The notes under the pieces: model-generated
Database searches by the model: none
Seen by the model: the letters and a program-made list of their open reading frames with translations, nothing else
Told to the model about the DNA's origin: nothing
Program-made: the position numbers and the translations under genes
Assembly: GCA_016208235.1 (NCBI GenBank)
Contig: JACQYN010000021.1
Span: forward strand, 1 to 47,623
Length of the DNA stretch: 47,623 bases
Source: Deltaproteobacteria bacterium
Lineage (GTDB): Bacteria > Desulfobacterota > Desulfobaccia > Desulfobaccales > 0-14-0-80-60-11
Direction of reading: 5' to 3'
In this document: positions 39,760 through 47,623 of the stretch, piece after piece
Layout of the letters: every line of letters starts with the position of its first letter
Numbering within the stretch: the stretch's first letter is position 1

Positions 39760-40410
39760 ATGATCTGGGTGGCCCGGATCTTCAGCACTTCCATCGGCAA
39801 GAAGCAGCTGATGGCCGTAACCGGCATACTTTTTCTGGTGTTCCTGACAACCCATCTTCTCGGCAACTTGAGCATTTATGGGGGCATAGAGGCCTTTAAC
39901 GCCTACGCCGAACATCTCCACGCCCTGGGCAAGTTGCTGGTGGTGGCGGAGGTGGGGCTGGTCGTCGCCTTAATAATTCACGTCACACTCGCCATTATTC
40001 TTTTTTTTGAGAACCGCAAGGCCCGGCCCATCAAGTACGCGGTGGACAAAAGCGGCGGCGGGGGCCGCACTTTATCCTCCCAAACCATGCCGTTCACCGG
40101 TTTGCTGATCCTGGCCTTCGTGGGCCTCCACCTGGCCAACCTTTCCCACCATATCGTCGATCAAACGAACCGGACCATCTTCCAAATCGCCTACGAGGTC
40201 TTTGCCAACAAAGGAATCCTGATATTTTATCTGGCCTCCATGGTGGTTGTGGGTTTGCATGTGCGGCACGGCCTCTGGAGCGCGTTTCAGACCATCGGGG
40301 CCAACCATCCCAAGTATATGCCCTTTATCGAATGGCTGAGCATCTTCTTTGCCGTCATCGTCGCGGTCGGCTTCGGCTCTCTGCCCCTTGCCATACTCGC
40401 GTTGAAATAG
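39760..40410 (+). CDS. sdhC: Succinate dehydrogenase/fumarate reductase cytochrome b subunit
   Basis: The 216-residue membrane anchor has five predicted helices. Histidines in TTHLLGNL, AEHLHALGK, IIHVTLAI, LHLANLSHH and LHVRHGLW fit a B-type (Bacillus/Wolinella-like) diheme cytochrome b that exchanges electrons with menaquinone. GGGAGAAGG precedes the ATG. It is followed at 12 bp by the flavoprotein gene. The start of the operon is supported by a 222-bp upstream gap; a TTGACA at 39646 lacks a matching -10 box. Confidence 0.93.
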   Translation: MIWVARIFSTSIGKKQLMAVTGILFLVFLTTHLLGNLSIYGGIEAFNAYAEHLHALGKLLVVAEVGLVVALIIHVTLAIILFFENRKARPIKYAVDKSGGGGRTLSSQTMPFTGLLILAFVGLHLANLSHHIVDQTNRTIFQIAYEVFANKGILIFYLASMVVVGLHVRHGLWSAFQTIGANHPKYMPFIEWLSIFFAVIVAVGFGSLPLAILALK

Positions 40411-40422
40411 GGAGGTCCTTCA

Positions 40423-42332
<1,910 letters not shown>

Positions 42333-42336
<4 letters not shown>

Positions 42337-43097
42337 GCGGCAAAAACATCAACCTTACTCTCAAAATCTGGCGGCAGAACAGCCCCGAGGACCGGGGAAG
42401 GTGGGAAATCTTCCAGGCCAAAGATATCTCCACGGAAGCCTCGTTTCTGGAAATGCTGGACATCGTCAACGAGCAGCTCGCGCTGGCGGGCAAGGAACCC
42501 GTGGCCTTCGACCATGACTGCCGGGAGGGTATCTGCGGCACGTGCGGCTGCGCGGTGAACGGCCGCCCCCACGGCCCGGACCGGGAAACCACCCTCTGCC
42601 AGCTCCACATGCGCCGCTTCCAAGAAGGCGACACCCTGGTGATTGAGCCTTACCGGGCCCGGGCCTTTCCGGTGATCAAGGACCTGGTGGTGGACCGCAG
42701 CGCGTTTGACGGCGTGATTCAGGCCGGGGGCTTTGTGTCGGTGAACACCGGCCAGGCCCAGGATGCGAACAACCTGCCCGTACCCCGGGACGACGCCGAA
42801 AGGGCCATGGACGCGGCCGCGTGCATCGGCTGCGGCGCGTGTGTGGCGGCCTGTCCCAACGCCGCAGCCATGTTGTTTGTGAGCGCCAAGGTCTCCCACT
42901 TGGCGGTGCTGCCCCAGGGCCGCACGGAAGCCGCGCGGCGGGCCCTGTCCATGGTGGCGCAGATGGACGCCGCCGGCTTCGGCAACTGCACCAATCACAA
43001 AGAGTGCGAAGTGGAGTGCCCCAAGGGGATTTCCATCAGCAATATCGCCCGCTTGAACCGGGAATTTATCAAGGCCGGGTTGGCCTCCAAGGAATAA
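42333..43097 (+). CDS. sdhB: Succinate dehydrogenase/fumarate reductase iron-sulfur subunit
   Basis: The 254-residue subunit carries three clusters. The [2Fe-2S] site is [20 protein letters not shown]...TLCQ, the [4Fe-4S] is [17 protein letters not shown], and the remaining cluster uses [16 protein letters not shown]. It passes electrons between FAD in SdhA and heme in SdhC. It overlaps sdhA by ATGA, so the three genes are co-translated. The stop is followed by a repeat-filled gap, then the hdr genes on the same strand. Confidence 0.95.
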
Positions 43098-43099
43098 TA

Positions 43100-43120
43100 C
43101 CGTTTTCGGTTTTCCGTTAA
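43100..43120. repeat. CCGTTTT-class heptads
   Basis: CCGTTTT-CGGTTTT-CCGTTAA, three period-7 units, inverted relative to the CGGAAAA class. Confidence 0.55.
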
Positions 43121-43186
43121 AGGACTGAAATAAGTAATTGGAATCGTTGCAGCAGAAACCGAACGAGGCGAAAGTCTATTTAAGGT

Positions 43187-43265
43187 GTCATTCTGAACGG
43201 AGCGAAGCGGAGTGAAGAATCTCGTATCTTGAGATTCTTCGGTCGCTTCGCTCCCTCAGAATGAC
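43187..43265. repeat. GTCATTCTGA-bounded palindromic element (79 bp)
   Basis: GTCATTCTGAACGGAGCGAA on the left mirrors TTCGCTCCCTCAGAATGAC on the right with GAAGAATCTC/GAGATTCTTC inside. Close relative of 36580-36661. Confidence 0.8.
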
Positions 43266-43496
43266 AAAATATGCATTTTTGCAGAGGTCTGAATTGGTAA
43301 AAATTCCGGCATCTCCAGGCAAAGTGAAAATTGCTTATGTGAAAGGACCTGGGGCTGGGAAAAATTGGCTTAAACGCGATTTTCGCTAAGATTGCGGATA
43401 TTATCGCCAAAATATCTCAGCCGGATATTCCTGAAGCCCTGGAAAAATGATATGTTAACATGAATATGTATACACATGAAATTGGAAAGAATGCTT

Positions 43497-44075
43497 ATGC
43501 CCAAAACCACGGATAACACCCTGCGCCCTTCCTTCACCCTGGCGGAAAAGCTGGCCCAAGGGAATTTGTCCGCTTCCGCTTGTTACCAGTGTAAGAAGTG
43601 CTCCAGCGGCTGTCCTTTGACCTTCGCCATGGACCTTCTGCCCCATCAGGTGATTCACCTGTCCCTGTTGGGCCAGGAAGAGAAGGTTCTGACTTCCAGT
43701 ACCATTTGGGTCTGCTCCGCGTGCGAGACCTGTACCACCCGCTGCCCCAACGGCATCGATATCGCCGGCGTCCTGGATTGGCTCAAGGAAGAAGCCCTGA
43801 AGCGGGGGATAAGCGTGGCCCAACCGGAAGTGGCCACCTTTCACCGCTATTTTCTGGAGAGCATCAAGGCCGGCGGGGGCCGGGTCGCCGAGGCGACCCT
43901 GGTGCGCCGCTTCACCCTCTTCAAGCTGCGGCGCAAATTCGATATCAATGAGTTGAAAGAGAATATGAAGCTGGGCTGGCAGCTCATGAAGCGGGGACGC
44001 ATGCGCCTGCTGGGGTCCCATGCTCCCAAAGGGCAGGCGGAAATCAAAGAAATCTTGAAGCTGATAAAGTCATGA
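43497..44075 (+). CDS. hdrC: Heterodisulfide reductase subunit C-like iron-sulfur protein
   Basis: About 192 residues from ATG 43497 (MPKTTDN), which has GGAAAG about 7 bases upstream. The ORF track uses 43476, adding MKLERML with no ribosome site. Two [4Fe-4S] motifs are clear: CYQCKKCSSGCPLTF and CSACETCTTRCPNGI. A long C-terminal helical tail follows. HdrC relays electrons between HdrA and HdrB. It overlaps hdrB by the ATGA at 44072. Confidence 0.9.
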   Translation: MPKTTDNTLRPSFTLAEKLAQGNLSASACYQCKKCSSGCPLTFAMDLLPHQVIHLSLLGQEEKVLTSSTIWVCSACETCTTRCPNGIDIAGVLDWLKEEALKRGISVAQPEVATFHRYFLESIKAGGGRVAEATLVRRFTLFKLRRKFDINELKENMKLGWQLMKRGRMRLLGSHAPKGQAEIKEILKLIKS

Positions 44076-44932
44076 CACCCATGAAAATTACCTATTATCC
44101 GGGTTGCTCCCTGGAAAACACGGCGGTGGATTACGCCGCGTCCATTGCGGGCATCACCCCCCTCCTGGACCTGGAGTTGGAGGAGATCACCGATTGGAAT
44201 TGCTGTGGGGCCACCGCCGCGCACAGCATCAACCATGAACTGGCCCTGGCCCTGCCAGCGCGCAATTTAATGACCGCCCAGAAGATGGGCCGGGACGTGG
44301 TGGCCCCTTGCGCCTTATGCTTTAACCGCCTTAAGGTGGCGGAAAAGGCCCTGAAAAACCCGGAAGGGAACCCCTTGGGCCTCTCTTATCAGGGCGCCAT
44401 CAAGATCTGGGACCTGTTGGATTACCTGACCCAGGAAACCTATTTACAGGTCCTCTCCCAGAAGGTGGTCAAGCCCCTTAAGGGCCTGAAGGCCGTGGGG
44501 TATTACGGCTGCGTGGTGGCCCGGCCTCCGGATATTACAGATAAGAAGGATTACGAGAATCCCCAAAATATGGAGCGCCTGCTTACGGTCCTGGGGGCCA
44601 CCCCCCTGGATTGGTCCTACAAGACCGATTGCTGCGGCGCGGGCCTGGCCCTGTCCCGGCCGGATATCATCGACACCCTGACCCAGCGTCTCTATGAGCG
44701 GGCCCTGGCCGCAGGGGCCGAATGTTTCGTGGTTTCCTGCCAGATGTGCCAGGCCAATCTGGACCTGACCCAGGAGCGCATCTCCAAGAAATTCGGCAAG
44801 CATTACGATCTGCCGGTTTTATATTTTACCGAATTGATCGGCCTGGCCCTGGGCCATCCCCAGGTTAAGGAATGGCTGGCCAAGCACCTGGTGAATCCTC
44901 TGCCCTTGCTCCAAAAGAAGGGCCTCATATAA
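44072..44932 (+). CDS. hdrB: Heterodisulfide reductase subunit B-like CCG-domain protein
   Basis: The 286-residue protein has two CCG (cysteine-rich) domains. The first is DWNCCGATAAHS with APCALCFNR, the second YKTDCCGAGLALS with SCQMCQANLD. In methanogens these bind the noncubane iron-sulfur clusters that reduce CoM-S-S-CoB. Desulfobacterota lack that disulfide, so the partner here is unknown. Both complete CCG sets suggest an active cluster site. It is coupled to hdrC and lies 39 bp before hdrA. Confidence 0.92.
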   Translation: MTPMKITYYPGCSLENTAVDYAASIAGITPLLDLELEEITDWNCCGATAAHSINHELALALPARNLMTAQKMGRDVVAPCALCFNRLKVAEKALKNPEGNPLGLSYQGAIKIWDLLDYLTQETYLQVLSQKVVKPLKGLKAVGYYGCVVARPPDITDKKDYENPQNMERLLTVLGATPLDWSYKTDCCGAGLALSRPDIIDTLTQRLYERALAAGAECFVVSCQMCQANLDLTQERISKKFGKHYDLPVLYFTELIGLALGHPQVKEWLAKHLVNPLPLLQKKGLI

Positions 44933-44971
44933 CGGAAAAATCCAACTTCAAGCAAACCTGAACAAGTGATC

Positions 44972-47623
44972 ATGAATAAAGTCAAAAAAGACGCCACGTC
45001 AAAGAAAGTAGGAGCCGCGATGGTGGTGGGGGGCGGCATCGCCGGCATGCAAGCCGCCCTGGATCTGGCCAATTCCGGTATTTTCGTGCACCTGGTGGAA
45101 AGCAAGCCCGCCATCGGCGGGGTAATGGCCCAGTTGGACAAGACCTTCCCCACCAACGACTGTTCCATGTGCATCATTTCGCCCAAGCTGGTGGAATGCG
45201 GCCGCCACCTGAACATCAAGATCCATACCCTGGCCGAGGTGCAGGAAATCGCCGGGGAGCCGGGCAATCTCACCGTCACCCTGGCCAAAGAGCCCCGTTA
45301 TATAGATTCTACCAAGTGTACCGGCTGCGGCGATTGCGCCAAGGTCTGTCCGGTGGTCATGCAGGATGAGTTCAACATGGGCATGGCCGATTGGAAGGCC
45401 ACCTACCGCCTCTATCCCCAGGCCATTCCCGCCACCTTTGCCATCAAGAAGCTGGATCGGCCTCCCTGCAACCTGACCTGTCCCGCGGCCATCAATGTGC
45501 AGGGTTACGTGCAGCTCATCAAGATGGGGAAGTATGAAGAGGCCGTCAAGCTGATCATGGAGCGACTGCCTCTCCCCGGGGTTTTGGGCCGGGTCTGCCC
45601 CCATCCCTGTGAAGAAAAGTGCCGCCGCCGGGAATTGGACGAGGCGGTGGCCATCTGCAACCTGAAACGCTTTGCCGCGGACCAGGTGGATTTAACCAAA
45701 TTGCCCGTACCGTTGGTGGAGGCGCGGCCCGAAAAGATAGCCATTATCGGCTCCGGCCCCGCGGGGCTGGCTTGCGCCTATCATCTGGCCCTCCGGGGGT
45801 ACCGCCCCACCATTTTCGAGGCCCTTTCCAAAGCCGGGGGCATGCTCCGGGTGGGGATTCCGGACTACCGCCTGCCCAAAGACGTTTTGGACCAGGAGAT
45901 CAACAACATCCTCCGCCTGGGGGTGGACCTGAAGACCAATACCGCCCTGGGCCGGGACTTCACCCTGGACGGGCTCTTTGACGAAGGCTATAAAGCCGTC
46001 TTCCTGGGCCTCGGCTGCCACCTGGGCAAACCCCTGGGGATCCCTAAGGAGGATACCCCGGGTGTGGTCCAGGGGGTGGATTTACTGAGACGCCACAACC
46101 TGGGTGAACCCCAGGAAGTGGGGAAAAGACTGGCGGTCATCGGCGGCGGCAACGTGGCCATTGACGTGGCCTGCACCGCCAGGCGGCTGGGGTCCCAGGT
46201 GACCATCGTCTATCGCCGCGGACGTTCAGAGATGCCCGCGTTTCACCATGAAATCGAACAAGCCCTGTGCGAAGGGGTGGAGATTATCTACCTGGCCGCG
46301 CCCTTGGAGGTGGTGGTCAAAGACGGCAAGGTCGCGGGGCTCCGCTGCCAGCGGATGCGGTTAGGAGAACCGGACGCGTCCGGCCGCCGGAAACCCGAGC
46401 CCATTCCCGGGGACGTCTTTGAGCTGCCGGTGGACATGATCGTCCCGGCCATCGGCCAGGAAGCGGCCCAGGGCCCCCTGAAGGATTGCGGCGTCAACCT
46501 CTCCCGCTGGGGCACCATCGAAGTGGACGAAGTGACCTACCAGACCTCCCGGGCCGGGGTCTTTGCCGCCGGGGACGTGCACACGGGCCCCTGGATCGCG
46601 ATTGAGGCCGTTGGGGGCGGCATCGAAGCCGCGGAATCCATTGATCGTTATCTGCGGGGCCTCGATCTGGCCGCGGGCCGTTCCCAAGGCAAAGAAGCTC
46701 ACCAGCGATGGGCGGAAATCCCCAAGGATGAGGAAGGCCGGCCCCGGCAAGAGATGCCCACCCTGCCCCCGGAGCACACCTGCAAGGTCTTTGACGAGAT
46801 CGCCCAGGGCTACAGCGTGGAGCAGGCCCACGCCGAGGCGGACCGCTGTCTCAATTGCGGCATCTGCTCCGAATGTATGGAGTGCGTAAGGGCTTGTAAG
46901 GCCGGAGCCGTGGACCACAGCCAGGAACCGGAGATTGCCCAACTGGAAGTGGGCGCGGTGGTTCTGGCGCCGGGATTTAAGACTTTCGACGCCCGCCAAA
47001 AGCCGGAATTCGGCTACGGCCGTTATCCCAACGTCATCACTTCCCTGGAATTCGAGCGCATTCTCTCCGCCACCGGCCCTTATGCCGGGCACGTGAAACG
47101 CCCCGGAGACGGCGCCGAACCCCGGAAAATCGCCTGGATTCAATGCGTCGGCTCCCGGGACCCTTCCATCTGCCGGGATTATTGCTCTTCGGTGTGCTGC
47201 ATGTACGCCACCAAGCAGGCCATCATCGCCCGGGAACACGATAAGCGGATCGAGCCCACCATCTTCTATATCGACATCCGGGCCCACGGCAAGGGTTTCG
47301 ACCGCTACTACGAACGGGCCAAAGCGGATCAGGGGGTGCGCTACGTGCGCTCCATGATTTCCCGGGTCACCCAGGATCCCCGCACTCAAAACCTGGAACT
47401 CACTTACGTGGATGCGGACAACCGCATCCAGACGGAAGAATTCGACCTGGTGGTCCTGTCCGTGGGTCTGACCCCCCACCCCAGCACCGGGAAGTTGGCG
47501 GAGGTTTGCGGAATCGCCACCAACCCCTGGGGGTTTGTGGCCAACCCGCCCTTTGAGCTGGTCTCCACCGACCGGGAAGGCATCTTCTCCTGCGGCGTTT
47601 ATCAAGCCCCCAAGGATATCCCG
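44972..47623 (+). CDS. hdrA: HdrA-type flavoprotein with inserted GltD-like NAD(P)H module (runs off right edge)
   Basis: The frame from ATG 44972 is open to the window end (884 codons seen). Order: HdrA FAD half (MVVGGGIAGMQAALDL; TFPTNDCSMCIISPKLVECGRH); a first [4Fe-4S] motif (CTGCGDCAKVCP, near 115); a GltD-like insertion from about 165 with its own iron-sulfur start (CNLTCPAAINVQGYV, CPHPCEEKC), FAD site IGSGPAGLACAYHL (near 259) and nucleotide site IGGGNVAIDVACTARRL (near 389); a second motif CLNCGICSECMECVRAC (near 625); then the other HdrA half (WIQCVGSRDPS, YCSSVCCMYATKQA). The GltD part sits between the two ferredoxin-like motifs. Such proteins are linked to flavin-based electron bifurcation. 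The C-terminus and stop are missing. Confidence 0.93.
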   Translation, partial: MNKVKKDATSKKVGAAMVVGGGIAGMQAALDLANSGIFVHLVESKPAIGGVMAQLDKTFPTNDCSMCIISPKLVECGRHLNIKIHTLAEVQEIAGEPGNLTVTLAKEPRYIDSTKCTGCGDCAKVCPVVMQDEFNMGMADWKATYRLYPQAIPATFAIKKLDRPPCNLTCPAAINVQGYVQLIKMGKYEEAVKLIMERLPLPGVLGRVCPHPCEEKCRRRELDEAVAICNLKRFAADQVDLTKLPVPLVEARPEKIAIIGSGPAGLACAYHLALRGYRPTIFEALSKAGGMLRVGIPDYRLPKDVLDQEINNILRLGVDLKTNTALGRDFTLDGLFDEGYKAVFLGLGCHLGKPLGIPKEDTPGVVQGVDLLRRHNLGEPQEVGKRLAVIGGGNVAIDVACTARRLGSQVTIVYRRGRSEMPAFHHEIEQALCEGVEIIYLAAPLEVVVKDGKVAGLRCQRMRLGEPDASGRRKPEPIPGDVFELPVDMIVPAIGQEAAQGPLKDCGVNLSRWGTIEVDEVTYQTSRAGVFAAGDVHTGPWIAIEAVGGGIEAAESIDRYLRGLDLAAGRSQGKEAHQRWAEIPKDEEGRPRQEMPTLPPEHTCKVFDEIAQGYSVEQAHAEADRCLNCGICSECMECVRACKAGAVDHSQEPEIAQLEVGAVVLAPGFKTFDARQKPEFGYGRYPNVITSLEFERILSATGPYAGHVKRPGDGAEPRKIAWIQCVGSRDPSICRDYCSSVCCMYATKQAIIAREHDKRIEPTIFYIDIRAHGKGFDRYYERAKADQGVRYVRSMISRVTQDPRTQNLELTYVDADNRIQTEEFDLVVLSVGLTPHPSTGKLAEVCGIATNPWGFVANPPFELVSTDREGIFSCGVYQAPKDIP

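Follow-up and report, generated by a model that had tools for sequence, protein, structure and literature searches.

Circular permutation of the GltD module within the split ferredoxin of an HdrL-type protein and its apparent exchange between related genes

The window, i.e., the whole stretch of 47,623 nucleotides analysed here and the entire contig C46 of a 3.08 Mb assembly in 272 contigs, ends in an open reading frame that probably encodes a subunit of a flavin-based electron-bifurcating reductase of the HdrL type (double HdrA with inserted GltD), of which it covers the first ~60%. In this protein, a GltD module occupies the loop that precedes the final four cysteines of the ferredoxin inserted in HdrA. 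Sequence comparison indicates that this module is circularly permuted relative to canonical GltD and NfnL. On balance, we favour the reading that the split ferredoxin serves as a socket, in which the permuted cassette, whose two ends would meet at the module's own [4Fe-4S] cluster, is swapped between HdrA scaffolds, repeatedly switching between NADPH (YRR) and NADH (LE) with the bifurcating core unchanged. The split-ferredoxin layout is already published as HdrL, type III HdrA and the HdrA of Moorella thermoacetica (PMC2702500, PMC12054007, PMC9430772), the initial annotation having mentioned related fusions in anaerobes, and the window alone therefore leaves the picture of this architecture unchanged. 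Apparently new in the searchable literature are the YRR and LE types, the fact that the type follows the GltD tree, and the mosaic HdrL genes; in the literature searched, neither a circular permutation with respect to GltD nor the composite motif and cassette exchange described below were found.

The open reading frame starts at 44966 (GTG) or 44972 (ATG, the start chosen in the initial annotation), runs on the + strand to 47623 and is still open at the contig end. Residues are numbered from V1 at 44966. The nearest named relatives of the protein come from Desulfobaccales/Desulfobacca and other deltaproteobacterial MAGs. The features of the locus are as follows.

39760..43097, + strand: sdhC-sdhA-sdhB, b558-type succinate dehydrogenase / fumarate reductase, just upstream of hdrC
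43476..44075, + strand: hdrC-like gene, below the NCBIfam equivalog cut-offs
44072..44932, + strand: hdrB-like gene with two CCG-type cysteine motifs, matching the MFR SdhE and HdrB models below cut-off
44966..45448, + strand: N-terminal part of HdrA, to residue 161, with the FAD-binding Rossmann start, the DCSMC cluster motif (C66, C69) and the first ferredoxin half
45317..45349, + strand: first half of the split ferredoxin, C118, C121, C124 and C128 (CTGCGDCAKVC, CTGCGDCAKVCP), aligning with CTGCGQCSEVC of 5odc
45458..46864, + strand: inserted, circularly permuted GltD module, residues 165-633
45467..45622, + strand: N-terminal [4Fe-4S] cysteines of GltD, C168, C172, C211, C215 and C219, in a Fer4_20 match and 100% conserved
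46127..46237, + strand: pyridine-nucleotide site of GltD, GGGNVAID plus VTIVYRRGRSEMPA, of the YRR type (predicted NADPH)
46835..46858, + strand: EADRCLNC (C628, C631), the GltD module's own CxxC pair according to the permuted query and the position census
46865..46897, + strand: second half of the split ferredoxin, C634, C637, C640 and C644 (CSECMECVRAC), from the alignment with uninserted paralogs and 5odc
46865..47623, + strand: C-terminal part of HdrA, the rest of the TrxR-like domain with E697 and K750, running off the contig end

Contig C205 of the same assembly starts within the same HdrL gene. The overlap of its locus L089 with window positions 46472-47623 covers 384 residues at 98% protein identity and 1096 of 1152 identical bases (~95%), from which we infer that both contigs carry one chain of ~1,500 aa. 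The continuation on C205 comprises 999 aa and holds, past the window, an HdrA N-domain followed by a TrxR-like half that lacks the ferredoxin insertion and, at the C-terminus, a two-cluster ferredoxin. The second HdrA half and this ferredoxin are also present in the full-length paralogs C242 and C99, giving the length of the Moorella and HdrL proteins. The complete chain is predicted to contain three FAD sites, the third contributed by the second HdrA half beyond the window. The initial annotation had proposed two FADs and one NAD(P)H site per chain; the NAD(P)H site is retained, and the FAD count has to be raised to three. The occurrence of one HdrL gene on two contigs at ~95% DNA identity also suggests that strain heterogeneity probably broke the assembly inside this gene.

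Two uninserted HdrA paralogs of the same genome (C5 and C145, 1,025 aa), in which the ferredoxin halves are adjacent, define the insertion site. They align to residues ~10-160 and ~625-886 of the window protein with nothing between, placing the insert junction at residues ~160/634, and an uninserted paralog aligns with HdrA of M. thermolithotrophicus (5odc) without a break through the inserted ferredoxin (CTGCGQCSEVCP...CIECGLCAKVC). In the window protein, a domain search detected a 4Fe-4S motif at residues 112-130, ahead of the GltD-type domains Fer4_20 (165-241) and Pyr_redox_2 (257-550). Inserted homologs from 32 other genomes in several phyla break near residues 157-161 of C5. The site is common to all 82 inserted homologs compared, and the alignment of these 82 sequences shows no variation at fifteen cysteines, those of both ferredoxin halves and of the GltD cluster set. 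These invariant cysteines, together with the adjacent halves in C5 and C145, argue that the insertion is not a chance arrangement. The window protein is thus an HdrA with a GltD domain inside its inserted ferredoxin, as first annotated, and the two motifs quoted at that time are indeed 510 residues apart when counted from the first cysteine of each (C118 to C628). Placing all inserted HdrAs in a single clade was rejected (AU p 0.001), although the concatenated halves of mosaic genes may mislead such a test; quick single-segment trees gave 5 insertion changes on the N-part and 17 on the C-part.

The AF2 model of the window protein, built with 62 aligned sequences, has a mean pLDDT of 90.1 and a pTM of 0.85. 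In a Foldseek comparison with solved HdrA chains, the alignment extended over 875 columns and the TMt reached 0.91 (8rwn_A, 428 residues). With ~410 HdrA residues available for matching in the window protein, this value would leave little room for a missing or displaced ferredoxin. Judged from the TM-score and the alignment length, the two distant halves probably fold together into one ferredoxin, and two separate, complete ferredoxins, the outcome named beforehand as decisive against the arrangement, were not seen. The GltD part of the model superposes on 9bov_A with an rmsd of 2.0 Å at 47% sequence identity. A model of the GltD module alone, predicted without alignment, reached a pLDDT of only 36 and was set aside.

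In sequence searches, the structures of GltD, NfnL, DPD and StnC match residues 165-565, and HdrA structures match the outer parts. Together with the Fer4_20 and Pyr_redox_2 domains, this bears out a complete GltD-like fold between the two motifs, albeit a permuted one. In canonical GltD, NfnL and DPD, the segment GYxxExAxxEAxRCLxC is N-terminal and precedes PC...CP. The equivalent segment of the window protein, GYSVEQAHAEADRCLNC, is found at the C-terminal end of the module, and EAxRCLxC is missing from its N-terminus. Since this element is N-terminal in canonical GltD, the inserted module is circularly permuted. When the tail was moved to the front of the query, phmmer scores rose by 7-19 bits against every canonical GltD structure (4ylf, 300 to 315; 5jca, 266 to 279; 2vdc, 198 to 217; DPD, 144 to 161). 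In the canonical GltD of the same genome (C140), the homolog of residues 582-629 likewise lies upstream of the homolog of residues 164-561. A position census placed EAxRCLxC upstream in 21 canonical GltDs and downstream in 80 of the 82 HdrA-borne modules of the main alignment, the remaining two carrying the variants EARKCLNC and ETERCLSC at the equivalent place. Among newly fetched proteins, it is downstream in 9/9 HdrA-borne modules and in 20/22 others (of the last two, one is unclassified and one canonical). None of the census proteins has both an upstream and a downstream copy.

This permutation bears on the six-cysteine motif CLNCGICSECMECVRAC (C628, C631, C634, C637, C640 and C644). About a dozen other fusion proteins terminate within ~20 residues after RCLxC, so the CxxC pair cannot belong to a following ferredoxin. 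By this comparison the motif is composite: CLNC (C628, C631) is part of GltD, and the ferredoxin half is CSECMECVRAC only. Of the two motifs initially paired as halves of one ferredoxin, CTGCGDCAKVCP keeps this role entirely and CLNCGICSECMECVRAC keeps it for C634-C644 only, C628 and C631 being reassigned to GltD. The two [4Fe-4S] clusters of GltD would be bound by C168, C172, C211, C215, C219, C628, C631 and one non-cysteine ligand, a lysine, an assignment that we take over from DPD by homology. The tally is then seven cysteines plus Lys for the two GltD clusters and 4 + 4 cysteines for the ferredoxin. The window module thus carries the seven cysteines and one non-cysteine ligand, as well as the FAD and NAD(P)H Rossmann motifs, of GltD, NfnL and DPD. 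StnC, 9bov and 9n5u contain the permuted module as well, their match extending through the EAxRCLxCG tail. The same genome also uses it elsewhere, fused to HdrC/HdrD-like Fe-S and CCG domains (L158 on C235 and L100 on C42).

NADPH sites typically carry a pair of arginines where the second Rossmann strand ends, and NADH sites typically carry acidic residues there. At this position, YRR occurs in 55 and LE in 27 of the 82 sequences, which we predict to represent NADPH and NADH use, respectively. GxGxxG versus GxGxxA was considered as an NAD/NADP rule and set aside, as it fails to separate the two groups. The YRR/LE state changes 3 times on the GltD tree, and still 3 times when the motif itself is cut out, in contrast to 12-14 changes on the HdrA trees. 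The nucleotide type tracks the GltD tree and not the HdrA trees.

The genome contains five HdrL copies (window/C205, C99, C236, C242 and C7/C222), among them mosaics with breakpoints near the split-ferredoxin junctions. The identities of N-part, GltD and C-part of the window protein are 61/50/77% to C236, 65/73/50% to C99 and 81/86/52% to L012. C242 shows 84/53/79% to L015, and between C242 and C236 the GltD parts share 74% identity. A breakpoint scan located the switch in the window protein at residues 619-633 and a foreign segment in C242 at 169-657 or 156-660, with chi-square values of 72-186 compared with shuffle maxima of 11-23; the breakpoint positions are precise to ~5-40 residues, and identities of 50-85% mark the events as old. 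The mosaic types recur in independent assemblies: the window type in L009 and L010, the C242 type in L217 and, with the same foreign-segment pattern, in the independent genome of L214, and the C236 type in L023, L026, L212 and L213. Related HdrL genes thus appear, from these sequence patterns, to have exchanged the GltD cassette by recombination near the two ferredoxin junctions, carrying the YRR/LE specificity along. As for the fifth copy, C222 and C7 (L098/L099) overlap by 141 identical bases inside the HdrL gene, and an mvhD-like match follows it.

E697 and K750 of the window protein correspond to E356 and K409 at the flavin of M. thermolithotrophicus HdrA, and these bifurcation markers are found at the first flavin in 81/82 homologs. 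The position of the non-cysteine cluster ligand is occupied by Lys (LKRF) in the window protein and nearly all homologs, and not by the Glu found at the bifurcating FAD of NfnL. With Lys in place of Glu, as in StnC, the GltD FAD itself probably does not bifurcate. The predicted role is that of an entry port for NADPH, which the split ferredoxin connects with the bifurcating HdrA flavin and with HdrBC. NADPH would reduce the GltD FAD, and electrons would pass via the two GltD clusters to the split ferredoxin, now an internal wire, and on to the HdrA FAD at E697/K750, where they would bifurcate. One branch would lead to HdrC/HdrB and the other to a low-potential carrier, for which the C-terminal ferredoxin may be the exit; the whole reaction might also run in reverse (confurcation). 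The markers at the second flavin are kept in the window and C236 HdrL and lost in C242 and C99 (D/E). This variability (C205, L095, L096 and L097 compared) suggests that paralogs may vary in how many bifurcating flavins they have.

The putative partner genes hdrC and hdrB are present at 43476-44932, with scores under the equivalog cut-offs. hdrCB also accompanies most homologs, usually with mvhD. No mvhD match was found on C205; the gene is present beside C222 and most homologs. L010 has the sdhAB-hdrCB-hdrL linkage as well. The MFR SdhE model gives the HdrB-like protein a slightly higher score than the HdrB model does, which, together with the adjacent sdhCAB, hints at a link to succinate/fumarate metabolism.

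The relative with activity measurements, the HdrA of M. thermoacetica in the HdrCBA-MvhD-MetVF complex, has ~1,490 aa, eight [4Fe-4S] clusters, three FADs and one NAD(P)H site; it has been reported to oxidise NADH, with an NADH:benzyl viologen activity of 190 U/mg (PMC9430772). Like the window chain, it has a first ferredoxin/TrxR unit broken by GltD, a second TrxR-like half without ferredoxin insertion, a C-terminal ferredoxin, and three FAD plus one NAD(P)H sites, and its markers E696/K750 compare with E697/K750 here. However, the Moorella operon contains mvhD and metVF, whereas here hdrCB-hdrL lies beside sdhCAB with no mvhD following on C205, and the nucleotide motif of the window is of the predicted NADPH type. 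HdrL of Desulfobacterium autotrophicum, a fusion of heterodisulfide reductase and glutamate synthase for which an NADH site was predicted (PMC2702500), resembles the window protein as a large HdrA/glutamate-synthase fusion of a sulfate reducer. The loci given there are mvhD-linked, one of them also dsrABC-linked, and two encode selenoproteins, in contrast to C205 with no mvhD. In type III HdrA of ANME-1 and Bathyarchaeota, GltD likewise lies between the halves of the Fd-reducing ferredoxin, and NAD(P)H was proposed as the donor (PMC12054007). Type III is described there as a type I HdrA plus GltD, while in the window protein GltD is combined with a type II-like double HdrA. That study inferred NAD from GXGXXG. 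In the sequences compared here, YRR and LE types alike contain GxGxxA-like motifs and can be told apart only at the YRR/LE position. StnC of Sporomusa ovata and NfnABC-type large subunits (8oh5, 9bov, 9n5u) share the permuted GltD with its C-terminal EAxRCLxC-like tail, but there it is fused to NuoG/FdhF-like domains instead of lying inside HdrA. StnC has Lys170 at the non-cysteine cluster ligand, binds NADPH and has a non-bifurcating FAD; the window protein also has Lys.

The two motifs could instead belong to separate Fe-S units. The first would then be what is left of the HdrA ferredoxin, and the second a ferredoxin tail that came with the GltD module, as is found in some stand-alone GltD proteins. 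Other GltD fusions (L181, L094) do carry a tail RCxxCxxCxxCxxCxxxC followed by their own second motif, and NCBIfam PRK12771 (GltD plus tail) aligns up to residue 661. However, the window protein has no second complete motif after the tail, and HdrA sequence resumes beyond C644 (KAGAVDHSQEPE... versus PTGAVDFSQ...). The 100% conservation of the eight ferredoxin cysteines in the 82 sequences and the superposition of the model on HdrA across the whole split region (TMt 0.91) also speak against separate units, which we consider improbable. Still less probable is a vestigial or purely structural GltD module in a protein that exchanges electrons with free ferredoxin like an ordinary HdrA. The intact ferredoxin half-motifs would permit this, though nothing argues for it directly, and conservation across many phyla extends to the FAD and nucleotide sites and to each of the seven GltD cluster cysteines; the NADH:benzyl viologen activity of the Moorella enzyme also stands against it.

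A more serious alternative, though one we regard as unlikely, is that the insert abolishes ferredoxin chemistry and bifurcation, leaving an enzyme that simply passes electrons from NAD(P)H to HdrBC (disulfide or quinone-side). Ferredoxin might be kept out by the insert (PMC12054007), and the SdhE-like HdrB and adjacent sdhCAB would fit a direct succinate/fumarate link. Against this, the E/K markers persist at the first flavin of nearly all homologs, the window copy has them at its second flavin too, and the C-terminal two-cluster ferredoxin could still provide a ferredoxin exit. The mosaic pattern, finally, might reflect an assembly or binning artefact, since the assembly is of the metagenome type, with numerous similar copies and with contigs that end within HdrL genes, but every mosaic type recurs in independent assemblies, making such an origin very improbable. 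If the cassette exchange favoured here is correct, anaerobes rewire electron bifurcation via a plug-in nucleotide port while keeping the bifurcating flavin. YRR versus LE would then be a simple sequence rule for predicting whether members of a widespread and hardly characterised enzyme family use NADPH or NADH, and the exchange would account for CLNCGICSECMECVRAC, otherwise misread as one cluster site.

Two further observations concern the HdrA start and the intergenic region. In several HdrA/HdrL paralogs, the second cysteine of the TNDCxMC motif is replaced by an in-frame TGA (TNDCAM-TGA), consistent with selenocysteine; this is seen in L096 (C99), L091 (C145) and many other loci, and the window copy has Cys. 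The gap between sdhB and hdrC (43098-43475) contains a long palindromic repeat, GTCATTCTGAACGGAGCGAAGC ... GCTTCGCTCCCTCAGAATGAC, which is probably a dispersed REP-like element.
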